From: Flavobacteriales bacterium
Lineage (GTDB): Bacteria; Bacteroidota; Bacteroidia; NS11-12g; UBA955
Reading direction: 5' to 3'
DNA: 59,792 bases
Assembly (NCBI GenBank): GCA_947487175.1
Contig: CANKVM010000003.1
Location: 1-59,792, forward strand
This document shows positions 2,902 to 38,537 of this stretch, piece by piece; within the stretch, counting starts at the first letter, position 1; the number at the start of each line of letters is the position of its first letter. The notes below the pieces were generated by a model that was given only the letters and a program-made list of their open reading frames with translations, did not search any database and was not told the DNA's origin. The position numbers and the translations under genes were made by a program.

Positions 2902-3002
2902 CAGCGCAATTCTTTACGAGTGGGACTTTTGTAGTTTGAATCTATTGCGATTCCTACGCTTTCATTTCTGCTTCTGAAGCGTTAGCCCGAAAAAAAATAT
3001 TA

Positions 3003-5081
3003 ATGCAAAATTTTGAAAACTTGGGGTTACTACCTCAACTTGTGTCTACTGTAGAAAAGCAGGGATACACCGAACCTACGCCTATCCAAAAAGTGGCGAT
3101 TCCAGCAATTTTAGCAGGTGGCGACCTTTTCGCAACTGCTCCTACGGGTACAGGTAAAACTGCAGCATTTGCAATTCCTATTATCCAACAAATCATCGAG
3201 AAACCGCAAAAAGGCGTTCACGCCCTTATTTTAGCGCCAACTCGTGAGTTAGCACACCAAATTTCTGACAACTTCAAGAAATATGGTGCCACAATGAAAC
3301 TTCGTATCGCTTTGGTATACGGTGGAGTTTCTCAAAGACGCCAGGTTGAAGACATTCGCCGTGGTTGTCAGGTAATTATTGCCACTCCTGGCCGTTTATT
3401 AGACCTTATTCAACAAGGACATATTGATTTATCTGCAATTAACACTTGGGTGTTAGATGAGTGTGATCGTATGTTAGACATGGGATTCATTAGTGATATC
3501 CGTGATATTGGTCGTTTAATGTTAAATGATAAAAAACAAACTTTATTATTTTCAGCTACGGCTCCAAGAGAAATTAGAGTTTTGTCTCAAGAATTATTGT
3601 CTGAGCCAACACAAATTGACATTGCTCCTTTAAACGAAGAAAAACCAAAAATTACACAATGGTTATTTGCAGTAGGAAGAAATGACAAATTTGAATTATT
3701 AAAAGAACTTTTAGATGATGCTGAGGTTCACTCTATGTTGGTTTTTACAAAAACCAAACATGGTGCTGACAAATTGGTTGATTTACTAAGAAACATCAAT
3801 GAACATGCAGTTGCTATTCATGGCGACAAGAGTCAACGCGAACGTACTCGTAACCTAGACTTATTCAAAGAAGGCCGTGCACGTATTTTGGTAGCAACAG
3901 ACGTTGCTGCGAGAGGTGTAGACGTTCCAGCTTTGAATCACGTATTAAACTATGACATGCCGCAAGATCCTGAAACTTATACGCACCGTATAGGTAGAAC
4001 TGGAAGAGCGGGTAGTACAGGTTTGGCTATGTCGTTTTGTGATCAATCAGAATCAAACTTGCTTGATATGATTTACAAAGAGCATGGAACAACTGATTTG
4101 GTTGAAATGGAACATGAATACCGCATTGAATTGCCAAAAGGGCGCAGTGGTGGTGGACGTGGCCGTGGTGGTTATGGTGGCGGTGGAAACCGTGGCGGTA
4201 ATCGCGGTGGCGGAAGTCGTGGTGGTAGCTCATTTGGTGGCAACCGCGGTGGAAGCTCATATGGCGGCGGCGGCGGAAGTTCTTACGGCGGTGGCGGTGG
4301 AAACTCTTACGGTGGTGGTAATCGCGGTGGAAGTGGTGGCGGAGAACGTCGTTCATTTTCAAACGATAGACCTGCTAATACAGACAGACCTGCTTTCAGT
4401 AACGACAGACCTTCTTACAACAACGACAGACCATCTTTTAATGATAGACCAGCTGGAGATAAACCTTCAGGAGACAGATCATTTGGTGGTAACAGACCCT
4501 CTGGCGATAGATCATTTAACAGTAACAGAACATCTAGCGATAGACCTGCATTTAATAGAAGCGATAGACCTGCACCATCTGGTGACAGACCTGCATTCAA
4601 CAGCAACAGATCTGGTAGCGACCGTCCATCTGGCGACAGGCCTTATGGAAACGCAAACAGAGGTGGTGGATCATTCGGTGGCAACAGGCCAGCGGGAGGC
4701 GACCGCCCTTTTAATAACGATCGCAATAGCAACACTTCTTCACGCCCTTATGGGTCTGAAAACCGCGATCGTAGTTTTGAAGGTAAGGTTAGACAAGAAA
4801 CGCAAGCTCGTCAGAGCAGTGCTTTCGGAAACAGCCGCAATAGTGAACGTAGTGCTCGTCCAGCATTTAACAGCAATAGCAGCGGCGACAACAATCGTCA
4901 AGCTCGTAGATCTGATTCAGGTCAACCTGCTGCGCCTGCTAGCGCTGATAGTGGCAAAAGTCACCATCGAGGCCAGGGCGGGAAAAAGCCAGCTAGTTCG
5001 AGCAATTTTAGCAGAAATTCACCTGCTAAACCTCGCAGAAACCCAGCTGGACACAAAAACAAATACAAATCTGATATTTAA
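3003..5081 (+). CDS. rhlE: DEAD-box RNA helicase, RhlE-like, with long RGG/DRP-repeat tail
   Basis: The 692-aa protein has an ATP-dependent RNA helicase core in residues 1-378. Visible motifs are the Q motif (PTPIQ, 25-29), Walker A APTGTGKT (46-53), PTRELA (79-84), motif II DECD (152-155), SAT (184-186) and HRIGRTGRAG (near 330). Motif II is DECD rather than DEAD, with a TGT codon at 3462-3464. Residues 379-692 form a low-complexity tail: first Gly/Arg (RGG, GGNRGG, SSYGGGGG units), then many (S/N)DRP units, ending in a Lys/Arg-rich stretch. Such tails bind RNA and can promote condensates in known proteins; that role here is inference. A strong terminator follows at 5105. Overlapping long frames in the tail are repeat artefacts. 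Confidence 0.93.
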   Translation: MQNFENLGLLPQLVSTVEKQGYTEPTPIQKVAIPAILAGGDLFATAPTGTGKTAAFAIPIIQQIIEKPQKGVHALILAPTRELAHQISDNFKKYGATMKLRIALVYGGVSQRRQVEDIRRGCQVIIATPGRLLDLIQQGHIDLSAINTWVLDECDRMLDMGFISDIRDIGRLMLNDKKQTLLFSATAPREIRVLSQELLSEPTQIDIAPLNEEKPKITQWLFAVGRNDKFELLKELLDDAEVHSMLVFTKTKHGADKLVDLLRNINEHAVAIHGDKSQRERTRNLDLFKEGRARILVATDVAARGVDVPALNHVLNYDMPQDPETYTHRIGRTGRAGSTGLAMSFCDQSESNLLDMIYKEHGTTDLVEMEHEYRIELPKGRSGGGRGRGGYGGGGNRGGNRGGGSRGGSSFGGNRGGSSYGGGGGSSYGGGGGNSYGGGNRGGSGGGERRSFSNDRPANTDRPAFSNDRPSYNNDRPSFNDRPAGDKPSGDRSFGGNRPSGDRSFNSNRTSSDRPAFNRSDRPAPSGDRPAFNSNRSGSDRPSGDRPYGNANRGGGSFGGNRPAGGDRPFNNDRNSNTSSRPYGSENRDRSFEGKVRQETQARQSSAFGNSRNSERSARPAFNSNSSGDNNRQARRSDSGQPAAPASADSGKSHHRGQGGKKPASSSNFSRNSPAKPRRNPAGHKNKYKSDI
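4138..4780 (+). repeat. degenerate RGG/GGN and DRP coding repeats in the helicase tail
   Basis: The DNA is built of short degenerate units. Up to about 4345 it encodes Gly/Arg-rich blocks; after that it encodes repeated xDRP motifs about 6-10 residues apart. The units vary in sequence, so this is an old, drifting repeat rather than a recent tandem expansion. Confidence 0.8.
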
Positions 5082-12358: not shown

Positions 12359-13354
12359 TTACACATTCTCTTCAATGGCTTTAAATAATTCATCTTTGAG
12401 AACATCTAACCCTTGTTCGGTAATTGAACTAAAGAATAAAACCTTAACATCTCCCATTTCCTTCACGATTTCGGCTTTTAACTCATCATCAAGCATCTCA
12501 GCCTTACTAATTGCTACAATTTTATCTTTCAATACCAATTCTTCATTAAATTGAGCCAACTCATTTATGAGCGTATTGTATTCCATTCTATGATTCTTAC
12601 TGTCTGATGGAATTAACAACAGCAATACGGCATTTCGTTCAATATGCTTTAAAAATCGATGTCCTAATCCCTTACCCAAATGAGCTCCTTCAATAATTCC
12701 AGGAATATCTGCCATAACAAAACTTCTAAAGTCACGATATTTCACTACCCCCAAATTAGGTGTTAGTGTTGTAAAAGCATAATCTGCGATTTCAGGTTTT
12801 GCAGCAGACAATACACTTAACAAGGTGCTCTTGCCCGCATTTGGAAAACCAACCAAACCAACATCCGCCAATACTTTTAACTCCAAAACCATCCAACGCT
12901 CCACTCCTGGTTCGCCAGGTTGGGCATATTGTGGTGCTTGGTTTGTAGGTGTTGCAAAATGCGCATTCCCTAAACCACCTCTACCTCCAGGAATCAATAC
13001 TTTTTTCTCACCATCTGCAGTTATTTCAAATAAGATCTCACCGGTTTCAGCATCTTTTGCAACTGTTCCCAATGGAACATCCAAAATAATATTTTCACCA
13101 GAAGCGCCAGTACTTGTACTTTCACTTCCTCCTATACCATCTCCTGCCATAACGTGCTTTCTGAATTTCAAATGCAACAACGTCCACATTTGCTTATTTC
13201 CCATAAGAATTATATCACCTCCCTTTCCTCCATCGCCACCATCTGGACCACCACGTGGATTTATTTTTGAACGATTATAATGACGACTTCCCGCGCCACC
13301 ATTGCCACTACGACAACATATTTTAACGTAATCAATAAAATTACTTTCAGCCAT
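12359..13354 (-). CDS. obg: GTPase Obg
   Basis: The 331-aa protein has the Gly-rich Obg domain (residues 1-160, with GGPDGGDGGKGGD and GGRGGLGNAHFATPTNQAP). The GTPase domain follows with Walker A GFPNAGKS (169-176) and the G3/switch region DIPGIIEGAHLGKGLGHRFL. G4 is unusual: SKAE at 283-286 (12497-12508) instead of (N/T/S)KxD, so the base-specifying Asp is Glu. The TGS domain of longer homologues is absent, as is normal in this phylum. Obg acts in 50S ribosome maturation and stress control. It is divergent from leuS; the upstream box is GACCTTTG (13362-13369), one base off consensus and 7 nt before the ATG. Confidence 0.93.
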   Translation of the reverse strand: MAESNFIDYVKICCRSGNGGAGSRHYNRSKINPRGGPDGGDGGKGGDIILMGNKQMWTLLHLKFRKHVMAGDGIGGSESTSTGASGENIILDVPLGTVAKDAETGEILFEITADGEKKVLIPGGRGGLGNAHFATPTNQAPQYAQPGEPGVERWMVLELKVLADVGLVGFPNAGKSTLLSVLSAAKPEIADYAFTTLTPNLGVVKYRDFRSFVMADIPGIIEGAHLGKGLGHRFLKHIERNAVLLLLIPSDSKNHRMEYNTLINELAQFNEELVLKDKIVAISKAEMLDDELKAEIVKEMGDVKVLFFSSITEQGLDVLKDELFKAIEENV

Positions 13355-13382
13355 TTCACTGCAAAGGTCGTTAAAATTCAGC

Positions 13383-13390
13383 TACCTTTG
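13383..13390 (+). promoter_or_regulatory. TACCTTTG -7 box of leuS
   Basis: Exact TAnnTTTG match 16 nt before ATG 13407. It is divergent from obg, whose weaker minus-strand box GACCTTTG lies at 13362-13369, so two promoters share about 50 bp. Confidence 0.65.
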
Positions 13391-13406
13391 TATTTTTGCA
13401 CTCGGA

Positions 13407-15983
13407 ATGTCTATTTCTCATCAATATAATTTCAACGAAATCGAATCAAAATGGCAAAAACATTGGAAAGATTCGCAATTGTACAAGGTTATTGAAAACT
13501 CTTCAAAGCCAAAATTCTATGCATTAGATATGTTTCCTTATCCCTCCGGATCAGGTTTACATGTTGGTCACCCTTTGGGTTACATTGCAAGTGATATTGT
13601 TTCTCGTTACAAAAGATTGAATGGATTCAATGTGCTACATCCAATGGGCTACGATGCTTTCGGATTGCCCGCTGAACAATATGCCATTCAAACTGGTCAA
13701 CACCCAGCCGTTACCACAGAACAAAATATTATTAGATTTAGAGAGCAGCTCGACAAAATGGGCTTTTGCTTTGATTGGGATAGACAAGTAAAAACTTGTG
13801 ATGCTAATTATTACAAATGGACGCAATGGATATTTTCATTGTTTTTTACCCATTGGTTCAATAAAGATTTGCAAAAAGCGCAAAAAATTGAAGATTTAAT
13901 TTCAGTATTTTCAGCAAATGGAAATATTGGAATCAACGCTCATTCAGGTAAAATTCATTCCTTTACAGCCAATGAATGGAATGCGTATAATACTCACCAA
14001 CAAAATGAGGTACTCAACCAATACCGTTTGGCATTCATTGACGAAACTACTGTCAATTGGTGCGAAGAAATGGGTACGGTTCTAGCCAATGAAGAAGTTG
14101 TAAATGGCCTAAGTGAAAGAGGTGGATATCCAGTTATTCGTAAAAAAATGAAGCAATGGAGTTTGCGAATTACAGCTTATGCCGACAAACTGCTTCAAGG
14201 TTTAGAAACCATTAAATGGTCAGATTCAATCAAAGAAATTCAAAAAAATTGGATTGGAAGAAGTGAAGGCGCTGAAATTGATTTTAATATTGAGGGACAT
14301 TCAACTAAAATCAAAGTTTTCACTACACGTCCAGATACATTGTTCGGAGCTACTTTTATGGTTATTGCTCCCGAAAGTGAATTAATCAATAGCATTTGCA
14401 GCGACAATCAAAAACAATTGGTTTTAGATTATGCTGCTAAAGCAAAAAATAGAAGTGAAATTGAACGAATGGCCGACACCAAAAAAACAGGTGTTTTTAC
14501 AGGCGCATCTGCCATCAATCCTTTCACAAATAAATCTATTCCAGTTTGGGTTAGCGACTATGTTTTGGCAGGTTATGGAACTGGTGCTATTATGGCAGTT
14601 CCAGCACATGATGAGCGCGACTTTGAATTTGCACAAACCTTTGGATTGGATATAATTCCTGTAATAAAACCTGAAAATGAAACCATTGAAGTTCCATTGT
14701 CAGAGGCATTTAGTGCCAAAGATGGAATTTGTTTCAACAGTGGTTTCTTAGATGGATTAACAGTAAAAGATGCAATAAAAACTGCCATTTCTAAGGTTGA
14801 AGAATTAGAAATTGGCAGTAAAAAAATCAACTATAAATTGCGTGAAGCTGGTTTCGGCAGACAACGCTATTGGGGTGAACCCTTTCCAATCATTTGGAAC
14901 GATCAAATTCCCCAGCTTGTTAATGAATTTCCAGTAGAATTACCAAAAGTTGAATCATACAAACCCACTGGTACTGGAGAAAGTCCTTTGGCTGCTGTTT
15001 CTGATTGGGTAAATACCGCCATTGGTAAAAGAGAAACCGACACCATGCCAGGATGGGCAGGAAGTAGCTGGTATTTTTTACGTTACATGGATCCTAATAA
15101 TTCAACAGCGTTTGCTAGCAAAGAAGCCTTAGAATATTGGAATCAAGTTGATTTGTATGTTGGGGGAAGTGAACACGCAACAGGACATTTGTTATACAGC
15201 AGATTTTGGACGAAATTCTTAAATGACTTAGGATATATCAGTTGGGATGAACCATTCAAGCGCTTGGTAAACCAAGGCATGATCATGGGTGAAGATGGTC
15301 AAAAAATGAGCAAACGTTGGGGCAATGTTGTTAATCCCGATGATGTTTGCGAACAATACGGAGCAGATACCTTAAGATTATATGAAATGTTCCTAGGTCC
15401 ATTAACTGACAGCAAACCTTGGAATACACATGGAATTGAAGGCGTTTCTCGATTTTTAGGGAAATTTTGGCGTTTATTCATCCAAAACGAACAATTTAGT
15501 GTGTCAAGTGAAACCGCTTCAGCAGAAGAGCTAAAAATCCTTCATAAAACCATTAAAAAGATTTCAGAAGATATTGAATCAATGAGTTTCAATACCTCAG
15601 TATCTGCATTTATGGTATGCGTGAATGAATTGGGCACATTAAAATGCAATAAATTAGAAATATTAAAGCCGTTATTGGTTTTACTTGCGCCATTTGCGCC
15701 GCATGTTACTGAAGAGTTATGGGAAGCACTTGGTGAGAATACAAGTATTCACAAAAGTGATTGGCCAAAATTCAACAGCGAATATTTGGCAGAAAGTAGC
15801 TTCACGTATCCTATAAGTATTAATGGAAAAACCAGAACGCAACTAGAATTTGATATTAATGCTGATGTGAAAGACATCGAAGCCGCGGTATTGAACAATG
15901 AAATTGTTTTAAAGTGGACAAACGGTGAAAAACCTAAAAAGGTTATTGTGGTTAAAAACAGAATTGTAAACGTAGTTATATAA
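13407..15983 (+). CDS. leuS: leucyl-tRNA synthetase
   Basis: The 858-aa class I enzyme charges tRNA-Leu. The HIGH-type motif reads FPYPSGSGLHVGHPLGY (about residues 44-60) and the KMSKR loop reads GQKMSKRWGNVV (near 631). The editing domain (CP1), with TRPDTLFGATFMVIAPE and GTGAIMAVPAHDERD, is intact. There is an insert of some 50 residues after WTQWIFSLFF (about 155-205), of the kind seen in LeuRS of this phylum. The C-terminal anticodon-binding domain ends in KVIVVKNRIVNVVI. A perfect 17-bp inverted repeat follows 17 bp after the stop. Confidence 0.97.
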   Translation: MSISHQYNFNEIESKWQKHWKDSQLYKVIENSSKPKFYALDMFPYPSGSGLHVGHPLGYIASDIVSRYKRLNGFNVLHPMGYDAFGLPAEQYAIQTGQHPAVTTEQNIIRFREQLDKMGFCFDWDRQVKTCDANYYKWTQWIFSLFFTHWFNKDLQKAQKIEDLISVFSANGNIGINAHSGKIHSFTANEWNAYNTHQQNEVLNQYRLAFIDETTVNWCEEMGTVLANEEVVNGLSERGGYPVIRKKMKQWSLRITAYADKLLQGLETIKWSDSIKEIQKNWIGRSEGAEIDFNIEGHSTKIKVFTTRPDTLFGATFMVIAPESELINSICSDNQKQLVLDYAAKAKNRSEIERMADTKKTGVFTGASAINPFTNKSIPVWVSDYVLAGYGTGAIMAVPAHDERDFEFAQTFGLDIIPVIKPENETIEVPLSEAFSAKDGICFNSGFLDGLTVKDAIKTAISKVEELEIGSKKINYKLREAGFGRQRYWGEPFPIIWNDQIPQLVNEFPVELPKVESYKPTGTGESPLAAVSDWVNTAIGKRETDTMPGWAGSSWYFLRYMDPNNSTAFASKEALEYWNQVDLYVGGSEHATGHLLYSRFWTKFLNDLGYISWDEPFKRLVNQGMIMGEDGQKMSKRWGNVVNPDDVCEQYGADTLRLYEMFLGPLTDSKPWNTHGIEGVSRFLGKFWRLFIQNEQFSVSSETASAEELKILHKTIKKISEDIESMSFNTSVSAFMVCVNELGTLKCNKLEILKPLLVLLAPFAPHVTEELWEALGENTSIHKSDWPKFNSEYLAESSFTYPISINGKTRTQLEFDINADVKDIEAAVLNNEIVLKWTNGEKPKKVIVVKNRIVNVVI

Positions 15984-21397: not shown

Positions 21398-21895
21398 TTA
21401 TTTGTATTTATTTACCAATTGAAGCAAACCTTCCTTGTCAAGCGCACCCAATTGTTTAAAAATTACTTCTCCTTTTTTGAAGAAAATAATTGTAGGATAA
21501 CCTTCTAAATTATATTTACTTGAAATATCCAATTGTGCTTCTGCATCTACTTTAATTACGTTCACAATGTCAGATTTTTCAGCTTTTATTTCAGCAACAA
21601 ATGGAGCCATTTGCTTACAAGGACCACACCAAGTGGTATAAAAGTCAACCATAGATAACTTTTCGCTTGCTATTTCTTTGTTGAATTCATCAAGAGTTAA
21701 CTTTTTATGATCGTTGGTCACAGCTACATTCTCCACTGGCGTAGCAGCAATTGTTTCAGGCGTAATTGCCGTGGGAGCTGCAGTGTCTAGATTCATTGCT
21801 TCATTTGATTTTGATTGACAACTAGCCAATAAAAACACACTCAATCCCAAAAAAACTGGGGTAAATATTCTGTTCATTAAAAATCTTCTTTCCAT
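21398..21895 (-). CDS. thioredoxin-like lipoprotein
   Basis: The 165-aa protein has a lipoprotein signal with lipobox LLASC (Cys26 lipidated). A Thr/Pro/Ala-rich linker (30-65) follows, then a complete thioredoxin domain with active site WCGPCK (Cys90, Cys93) and the cis-Pro loop GYPTII. It would sit in the membrane facing the periplasm and reduce or rearrange disulfides. Start ATG 21895 is supported by a TAACTTTG box ending 4 nt upstream (leaderless); a second Met at codon 7 is possible. A lipoprotein MsrB is found at 33.3 kb, a potential client. Confidence 0.9.
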   Translation of the reverse strand: MERRFLMNRIFTPVFLGLSVFLLASCQSKSNEAMNLDTAAPTAITPETIAATPVENVAVTNDHKKLTLDEFNKEIASEKLSMVDFYTTWCGPCKQMAPFVAEIKAEKSDIVNVIKVDAEAQLDISSKYNLEGYPTIIFFKKGEVIFKQLGALDKEGLLQLVNKYK

Positions 21896-21899
21896 AACA

Positions 21900-21907
21900 C
21901 AAAGTTA
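21900..21907 (-). promoter_or_regulatory. TAACTTTG -7 box of the thioredoxin gene
   Basis: Minus-strand TAnnTTTG match ending 4 nt before ATG 21895. It faces another leaderless promoter 16 bp away in a 40-bp divergent gap. Confidence 0.75.
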
Positions 21908-21923
21908 CTTCAGATAAAATGAA

Positions 21924-21931
21924 TATTTTTG
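21924..21931 (+). promoter_or_regulatory. TATTTTTG -7 box of the glycosyltransferase pair
   Basis: Plus-strand TAnnTTTG match ending 4 nt before ATG 21936. Its upstream element would have to overlap the divergent thioredoxin promoter. Confidence 0.72.
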
Positions 21932-21935
21932 CTGT

Positions 21936-22883
21936 ATGTCAGAAAAAAACATAGAATTATCAGTCATTGTACCTTTGTTCAATGAAGAGCAAAATATAGG
22001 TGCTCTAAATGAGCGAATAATCACTGTATTGGCATCTATGTCTATATCGAATGAAGTGATCTATATAAACGATGGCAGCAAAGACAAAACCCTGCCTCTA
22101 ATCATTGGATTAACATATCAATTTCCGAATATTAAGTACATTGATTTTTCAAGAAATTTCGGACATCAGCAAGCCATTTCTGCTGGAATACAATTTGCAA
22201 AAGGCAAATATTTAGTAATTATGGATGGTGATGGCCAAGATCCACCCGAGCTCATTCCGGAGTTATATGAAAAAGCTTGCAGCGGATTTGAAGTGGTATA
22301 TGCAAAACGCAAAAAGCGTCAAGGTGAGGGATTGCTAAAGAAATTTACCGCAAAACTATTCTATCGCATACTAGCAAAAATTACCAATATTGAAATCCCA
22401 GTTGATACAGGCGATTTTAGAATTATCCATCAAAAAGTACAAAGAATATTGAATCAAATGCCTGAGCAGCATAAATATATTAGAGGACAAATTGCATGGA
22501 TTGGGTTTAATCAAACCTTTATTGAATACGACCGAGAGGAAAGAATGTCGGGTCAAACAAAATTTACTTACCGCAAAATGATAGGATTTGCAATTGATGG
22601 GATCAGCGGATTTAGCACTTGGCCTTTAAAAGTGGCTACCATAAGTGGATTCATTGTATCATTCATTTCATTTATGCTCATCATTTATAGTTTATACCAA
22701 AAATTCTTTGGTGAAACTGAAAAAGGTTGGACATCGCTCAATATTTCGGTTTTATTTATTGGGGGAATACAACTCATTGGAATAGGAATATTGGGTGAAT
22801 ACTTAGGCCGAGTGAGTGAAAATGTAAAAAATAGACCTCATTTTATTGTGAGAGATTCGAATTTAAATTCAAATGAATCTTAA
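21936..22883 (+). CDS. GT2 family polyprenyl-phosphate glycosyltransferase (DPM1/GtrB-like)
   Basis: The 315-aa protein has a GT-A domain with SVIVPLFNEEQNI at the N-terminus, YINDGSKDKT and the metal-binding MDGDGQDPPE (about 93-102). Two C-terminal membrane segments follow, near 230-260 and 270-295. Proteins of this layout transfer a sugar from a nucleotide donor to undecaprenyl phosphate on the cytoplasmic face. The next gene, a multi-pass transferase, overlaps by 11 bp and would use the lipid-linked sugar on the other face. Start ATG 21936 is supported by the -7 box 4 nt upstream. The sugar cannot be predicted. Confidence 0.9.
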   Translation: MSEKNIELSVIVPLFNEEQNIGALNERIITVLASMSISNEVIYINDGSKDKTLPLIIGLTYQFPNIKYIDFSRNFGHQQAISAGIQFAKGKYLVIMDGDGQDPPELIPELYEKACSGFEVVYAKRKKRQGEGLLKKFTAKLFYRILAKITNIEIPVDTGDFRIIHQKVQRILNQMPEQHKYIRGQIAWIGFNQTFIEYDREERMSGQTKFTYRKMIGFAIDGISGFSTWPLKVATISGFIVSFISFMLIIYSLYQKFFGETEKGWTSLNISVLFIGGIQLIGIGILGEYLGRVSENVKNRPHFIVRDSNLNSNES

Positions 22884-38453: not shown

Positions 38454-38537
38454 AAGCTTTATTTATTAAGTTTTAATTTAGCGCGAAAATATATTTTTAT
38501 TTGTATAAAACAACACCATTTTTGTAATCATTTTATT

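Follow-up and report, generated by a model that had tools for sequence, protein, structure and literature searches.

Introduction

The closest described counterparts of the promoters analysed here are the sigma-ABfr -7 promoters of Bacteroidetes, in which, according to the available parts of two reports, the -7 element occupies positions -12 to -5 with 4-5 nt left to the transcription start site (PMC6847099, PMC9723704). The divergent thioredoxin/GT2 gene pair of a Flavobacteriales bacterium (GenBank assembly GCA_947487175.1) has the same box sequence, TAnnTTTG, at the same 4-nt distance to the presumed start site. It differs in that its starts are predicted ones and in that no TTTG is present near -33 on the sense strand of either promoter, both having CAAA at -36 to -33. 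The lack of TTTG is not decisive, because this element is much less evident in F. johnsoniae, according to PMC6847099. Leaders under 10 nt are reported at about 3.7% in B. thetaiotaomicron, leaderless cases at 5.5% in F. psychrophilum (PMC9723704) and, by subtraction, leaders of up to 10 nt at 13% of the probable promoters in F. johnsoniae (PMC6847099).

A -10-type box a few base pairs before the open reading frame drives leaderless mRNA also in Deinococcus-Thermus, a different phylum with a different box, TANNNT (PMC12340547, available sections); the word 'divergent' does not occur in the main text of that paper. Divergent transcription from a short segment that excludes two polymerases is known from the E. 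coli bidirectional promoters of Warman and colleagues, which, in the available part of their paper, use one shared symmetric -10 element, 10, 18 and 23 bp being common distances between the starts (PMC12825309). The thioredoxin/GT2 pair, in contrast, has two separate boxes with predicted starts 41 bp apart, and by that definition it represents separate divergent promoters and not a bidirectional one. The same part of the E. coli study reports that the basal activity of all five bidirectional promoters tested (5/5) was too low for polymerase competition, and that competition arose upon strong activation, the interference reducing cell-to-cell variation (PMC12825309). Our literature search over a limited collection found no description of paired leaderless divergent promoters in Bacteroidetes.

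Genes and predicted promoter elements at the thioredoxin/GT2 gap

The window, i.e., the whole 59,792-nt stretch of DNA that was analysed (contig CANKVM010000003.1), contains the following features at and around the gap:

21398..21895, minus strand: thioredoxin-fold protein, 165 aa (Pfam PF00085, 1.8e-27); predicted transcription start A21895
21893-21895, minus strand: thioredoxin start codon (CAT)
21900..21907, minus strand: TAACTTTG, -7 box for thioredoxin, separated by 4 nt from the ATG at 21895
21908..21923, no strand: 16-bp spacer CTTCAGATAAAATGAA, common to both promoters and identical in loci L002-L005
21924..21931, plus strand: TATTTTTG, -7 box for GT2, separated by 4 nt from the ATG at 21936
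21936-21938, plus strand: GT2 start codon (ATG)
21936..22883, plus strand: GT2 glycosyltransferase, 315 aa (Pfam PF00535, 2.1e-28); predicted transcription start A21936
22873..24417, plus strand: open reading frame 3′ of GT2, 514 aa, sharing 11 bp with GT2

The two start codons are thus separated by 40 bp. The thioredoxin-fold protein scored 95.8 bits with NCBIfam TIGR01068 (cut-off 96.8), and its N-terminal hydrophobic stretch ends with LLASC, which, judged by eye, we take to be a lipoprotein signal with its lipobox. The best NCBIfam match of the GT2 protein was PgfS (1.9e-78; 263.8 bits, below the cut-off of 500), and in sequence the protein resembles polyprenyl-phosphate sugar transferases. 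The 514-aa open reading frame, for which Pfam and NCBIfam gave no match at E 0.001, is probably co-transcribed with GT2. At Rfam gathering scores the only hit in the window was an SRP RNA, located elsewhere than the gap. A second in-frame thioredoxin ATG is present at 21877. We chose the first ATG because the relative at locus L005 keeps it and lacks the one at 21877; the latter, which would leave an 18-nt leader, was thereby rejected as a general start and may still be usable in the window's species.

Both TAACTTTG and TATTTTTG fit exactly the sigma-ABfr -7 consensus TAnnTTTG (TAHHTTTG). Since the published -7 element lies at -12 to -5, a box 4 nt upstream of a start codon would mean a leaderless transcript, and this geometry places both transcription starts, as predicted, at the ATGs. 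With starts at 21936 (plus) and 21895 (minus), simple arithmetic puts each -7 box at -36 to -29 of the opposite promoter. RNA polymerase covers roughly -55 to +20. For a footprint of this commonly assumed extent, the core elements of each promoter lie inside the footprint at the other, as in overlapping divergent promoters; given the shared spacer, two polymerases should therefore not fit, and their simultaneous binding in the 40-bp gap is sterically unlikely. The initial annotation had placed both ATGs, the 40-bp gap, the two exact boxes and both 4-nt spacings correctly to the base. Its reading of two leaderless-type promoters agrees with the sigma-ABfr-type boxes at leaderless distance, its claim of reciprocal overlap with the positions just given, and its steric argument against two polymerases appears sound for this spacer and footprint.

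Start-adjacent boxes in the genome

TAnnTTTG as such is not enriched within the window (105 found vs. 99 expected), so the signal lies in its position. We sampled the window together with 20 stretches of 20 kb (459.8 kb), relying on our own open reading frame calls (at least 100 aa for box-to-start counts; at least 80 aa for divergent pairs and for the alignment with a genus-mate described below), which gave 358 genes with up to six start candidates each. The box-to-start distances peaked at 4-5 nt, with 21 pairs at 4 nt and 9-10 at 5 nt over a background of 3.0 per distance (Poisson 1e-11 for the 21). Genome-wide, the pattern TAHHTTTGNNNNATG occurred 100 times and its reversed control 39 times. 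When divergent gaps were modelled as a first-order Markov chain, the probability of a box was about 0.001 per position, and under this model only about 3e-4 two-sided 4-nt cases are expected in roughly 270 divergent pairs, a number extrapolated from 52 pairs in 460 kb.

As start-adjacent boxes are habitual in this genome, a two-sided pair is to be expected. Considering the first five starts on each side, the 52 sampled divergent pairs had a box at a distance of 3-8 nt from a start on 24 of 104 sides, some of them by chance given the background of about 3 per distance in 358 genes; boxes on both sides were seen in four pairs (4/52), with 2.8 predicted under independence. Gaps of 37-52 bp were found in 8/52, and in 7/52 the gap was negative, the longest open reading frames overlapping. 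Facing boxes 15-17 bp apart formed no cluster in the sampled divergent pairs, and sites with facing boxes 5-35 bp apart were hardly above control genome-wide (56 vs. 50). The thioredoxin/GT2 configuration is about what the habits of this genome produce, and fairly ordinary.

On another contig we observed a further two-sided start-adjacent divergent pair (L072, 15304-15334); its starts are separated by 29 bp, a tighter gap than that of thioredoxin/GT2, and its boxes by 6 bp.

Conservation of the gap in the family

A GT2 match with an E value of 1e-110 or lower was obtained for 38 of the 70 genomes of the family, representing 8/14 genera; the counts below cover these GT2-matching genomes. G080, which begins inside the gene at a contig edge, was left out, L032-L041, which look like contigs already among the loci, were counted once, and so was the window, a copy of L002. 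This left 37 loci, the window's own genome included, which are related and hence not independent events. The plus box was defined as the exact match closest to GT2 on its 5′ side, and its partner as the nearest exact box on the opposite strand at a distance of 10-30 bp; each box was assigned the first start codon that follows it in frame. Six loci of genus g1 have another CAAAnnTA, 2 bp from the plus box, that this distance limit excludes.

A divergent thioredoxin gene was present at the GT2 locus in 37/37 cases. The GT2 plus box was likewise exact in all 37, at 4-7 nt from the start (4 nt in 28), and an exact thioredoxin minus box was found in 36, one locus being without it. The distance between the boxes was 15 bp in 18 loci, 16 bp in 9 and 17 bp in 6, i.e., 15-17 bp in 33/37; it was 26 bp in three loci of one genus (g10) and undefined in one. 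Start-to-start gaps ranged from 40 to 60 bp, and outside L002-L005 the inter-box sequence differs in other genera. A compact spacer is thus conserved among relatives, which the initial annotation had named as evidence in its favour. On the thioredoxin side the first in-frame ATG was 4-8 nt from the box in 21/37 loci, 16-25 nt in 15 and undefined in one. A fixed short box-to-start distance, as expected of leaderless genes, is therefore kept in relatives for GT2 and only partly for thioredoxin, and the view that leaderlessness is essential on both sides of the gap is not supported.

The Obg/LeuS pair as a control

The same window contains a second compact divergent pair, Obg/LeuS (13354-13407), whose gap measures 52 bp and whose boxes are nearly start-adjacent. 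Together with the 29-bp gap on the other contig, it speaks against the layout being unique. Obg matches were found in 64 of the 70 family genomes and 30 loci were fetched, of which 29 were counted, L196 apparently ending at the gene start. The gap measured 50-52 bp in 23/29 loci and 61-104 bp in six. When either T or G was allowed as the first base of the Obg box (the window version is GACCTTTG), an exact LeuS box lay 21 bp away from it in 10 of the 11 g1 loci that include the upstream region; the 18 loci from other genera yielded no exact LeuS box. Stable geometry is thus not unique to thioredoxin/GT2, the preferred distance in Obg/LeuS being different, and beyond the genus the thioredoxin/GT2 boxes are better kept than those of Obg/LeuS.

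Identity with a genus-mate

Across the gap, a 63-bp run (21899-21961) is identical between the window and the genus-mate G006; the overall identity of the two is about 75%, in intergenic as well as coding DNA. Fourfold-degenerate sites are shared at only 26/88 positions in GT2 and 9/33 in thioredoxin. Next to the thioredoxin ATG two or three bases differ in G006, which has one extra base there. At least 43 of 45 upstream bases were identical at 4 of the 40 gene starts that could be aligned (six further starts gave no alignment), and two of the four belong to this pair. Fully identical 37-bp windows numbered 203 of 50,080, 27 of them at this gap. Such identity of the whole spacer exceeds the need of two -7 boxes, so that, judged from sequence, the site of an unseen regulator is possible, as is a short gene conversion as source of the identity.

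Two other places stood out in this comparison. Positions 2905-3052 (148 bp) and 3054-3118 (65 bp) of the window, upstream of a DEAD-box helicase gene and at its start, are identical to G006, and could represent a conserved element, a longer open reading frame or a recent exchange. Upstream of an O-methyltransferase gene (38493-38537), 44 of 45 bases are as in G006, with no exact TAnnTTTG.

Explanations for the paired boxes

The positions, spacing and conservation of the boxes are direct observations, and we consider it probable that the gap holds two Bacteroidetes-type housekeeping promoters, compact, divergent and overlapping, and maintained as a pair by selection. RNA polymerase carrying the primary sigma factor would recognise TATTTTTG, with GT2 transcription beginning on the ATG or immediately beside it; from TAACTTTG on the opposite strand, thioredoxin transcription would likewise begin on or beside the ATG of that gene. 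From this we infer that both mRNAs would be leaderless, or nearly so, in the window's species and translated as such. The same 16 bp would serve as upstream spacer for both promoters, presumably occupied by one polymerase at a time, each binding event picking one direction; the most likely outcome is low, largely independent basal expression, and, by analogy with E. coli, dampening of one gene by the other would be expected only upon strong activation of the latter's promoter. We favour two overlapping, mostly independent promoters because competition is low at basal activity in E. coli. Mutually exclusive expression of thioredoxin and GT2 is unsupported, and the exclusivity proposed by the initial annotation overstated.

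In a compact genome, two unrelated start-adjacent promoters could also have come to lie together by chance, the pair as such being unconstrained. This is possible, if rather less probable, and compatible with the favoured reading, which adds only that selection now keeps the pair. Consistent with coincidence, two-sided cases hardly exceed independence (4/52 vs. 2.8), gaps of 37-52 bp are found in 8/52 pairs, and in a sister family all eight fetched loci (8/8) have a near box at GT2 with no thioredoxin match in the locus; the box there is exact and 8 nt from the ATG in four loci, and has one mismatch at 4 nt in the other four. Yet coincidence alone leaves unexplained that the box-to-box distance is kept over genera while the sequence between the boxes changes, as well as the spacer identity with G006. 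That identity would follow if a transcription factor bound in the 16-bp spacer and controlled both genes, the site and not the geometry being conserved, which we regard as unlikely. Besides the spacer being identical beyond the boxes in L002-L005, TTCA-N7-TGAA can be made out in it by eye; its arms of 4 bp are weak and absent from the differing spacers of other genera, and overlapping promoter contacts could equally conserve the spacer. As a palindromic regulator site it was rejected on account of these arms, only 4 bp long and not kept in other genera. Selected reciprocal occlusion, with boxes held 15-17 bp apart since activity at one promoter has to shut the other off, would set expression of an envelope redox protein against that of a glycosyltransferase. 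We consider it improbable, despite a box-to-box distance (15-17 bp in 33/37) that is steadier than either the thioredoxin box-to-start distance (4-25 nt) or the inter-box sequence, with 26 bp, about one helical turn above 16, as the sole other value, and despite exact opposing Obg/LeuS boxes having been detected in genus g1 alone, which makes that pair a weaker control beyond the genus. Obg/LeuS nevertheless also holds a stable, different spacing, so that such stability is not peculiar to thioredoxin/GT2; facing boxes 5-35 bp apart are about as frequent as in the control (56 vs. 50); and E. coli bidirectional promoters show no competition at basal activity in the available part of PMC12825309. 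A family-wide selected polymerase switch, in which a fixed distance of 15-17 bp (or roughly a helical turn longer) places each box at the other's -33 contact, seems equally improbable, the better retention of the thioredoxin/GT2 boxes beyond the genus raising its odds slightly. If such a switch were true, an envelope thioredoxin and a polyprenyl sugar transferase would compete for each polymerase with no regulator.

The thioredoxin/GT2 gap is a fresh example of a promoter kind already known. As a clean conserved case of two start-adjacent promoters in 40 bp, it suits testing interference between overlapping -7 promoters.

Start-adjacent promoters across Bacteroidia

Of 119 Bacteroidia genomes, the window's own included, 115 had more occurrences of TAHHTTTGNNNNATG than of its reversed control, and 68 at least twice as many; by this ratio the window's genome ranks 43rd among the 119. 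The extremes were families f39, with up to 317 vs. 47 (G131, G168, G197), and f43, with up to 190 vs. 10 (G135, G171, G200), and these counts suggest that some Bacteroidia families rely heavily on leaderless genes. Little or no excess was seen in families f5 and f41, and a Marinilabiliaceae genome showed neither an excess of TANNTTTGNNNNATG (88 vs. 110) nor a 4-nt peak in 166 genes. Smaller samples from three more genomes, two in the same family and one in the order, gave only weak 4-nt peaks, with 4, 2 and 2 boxes in 120, 109 and 85 genes, respectively. The excess being this variable, start-adjacent promoters are a lineage-dependent habit, moderate in the window's genome. Leaderless genes may be under-annotated in parts of Bacteroidia.

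Within the GT2 gene, at 21970-21984, the box TACCTTTG (21970-21977) is followed after 4 nt by an ATG that is out of frame. Single pattern matches can therefore be chance, and this site is a decoy for pattern-based calling of leaderless genes.
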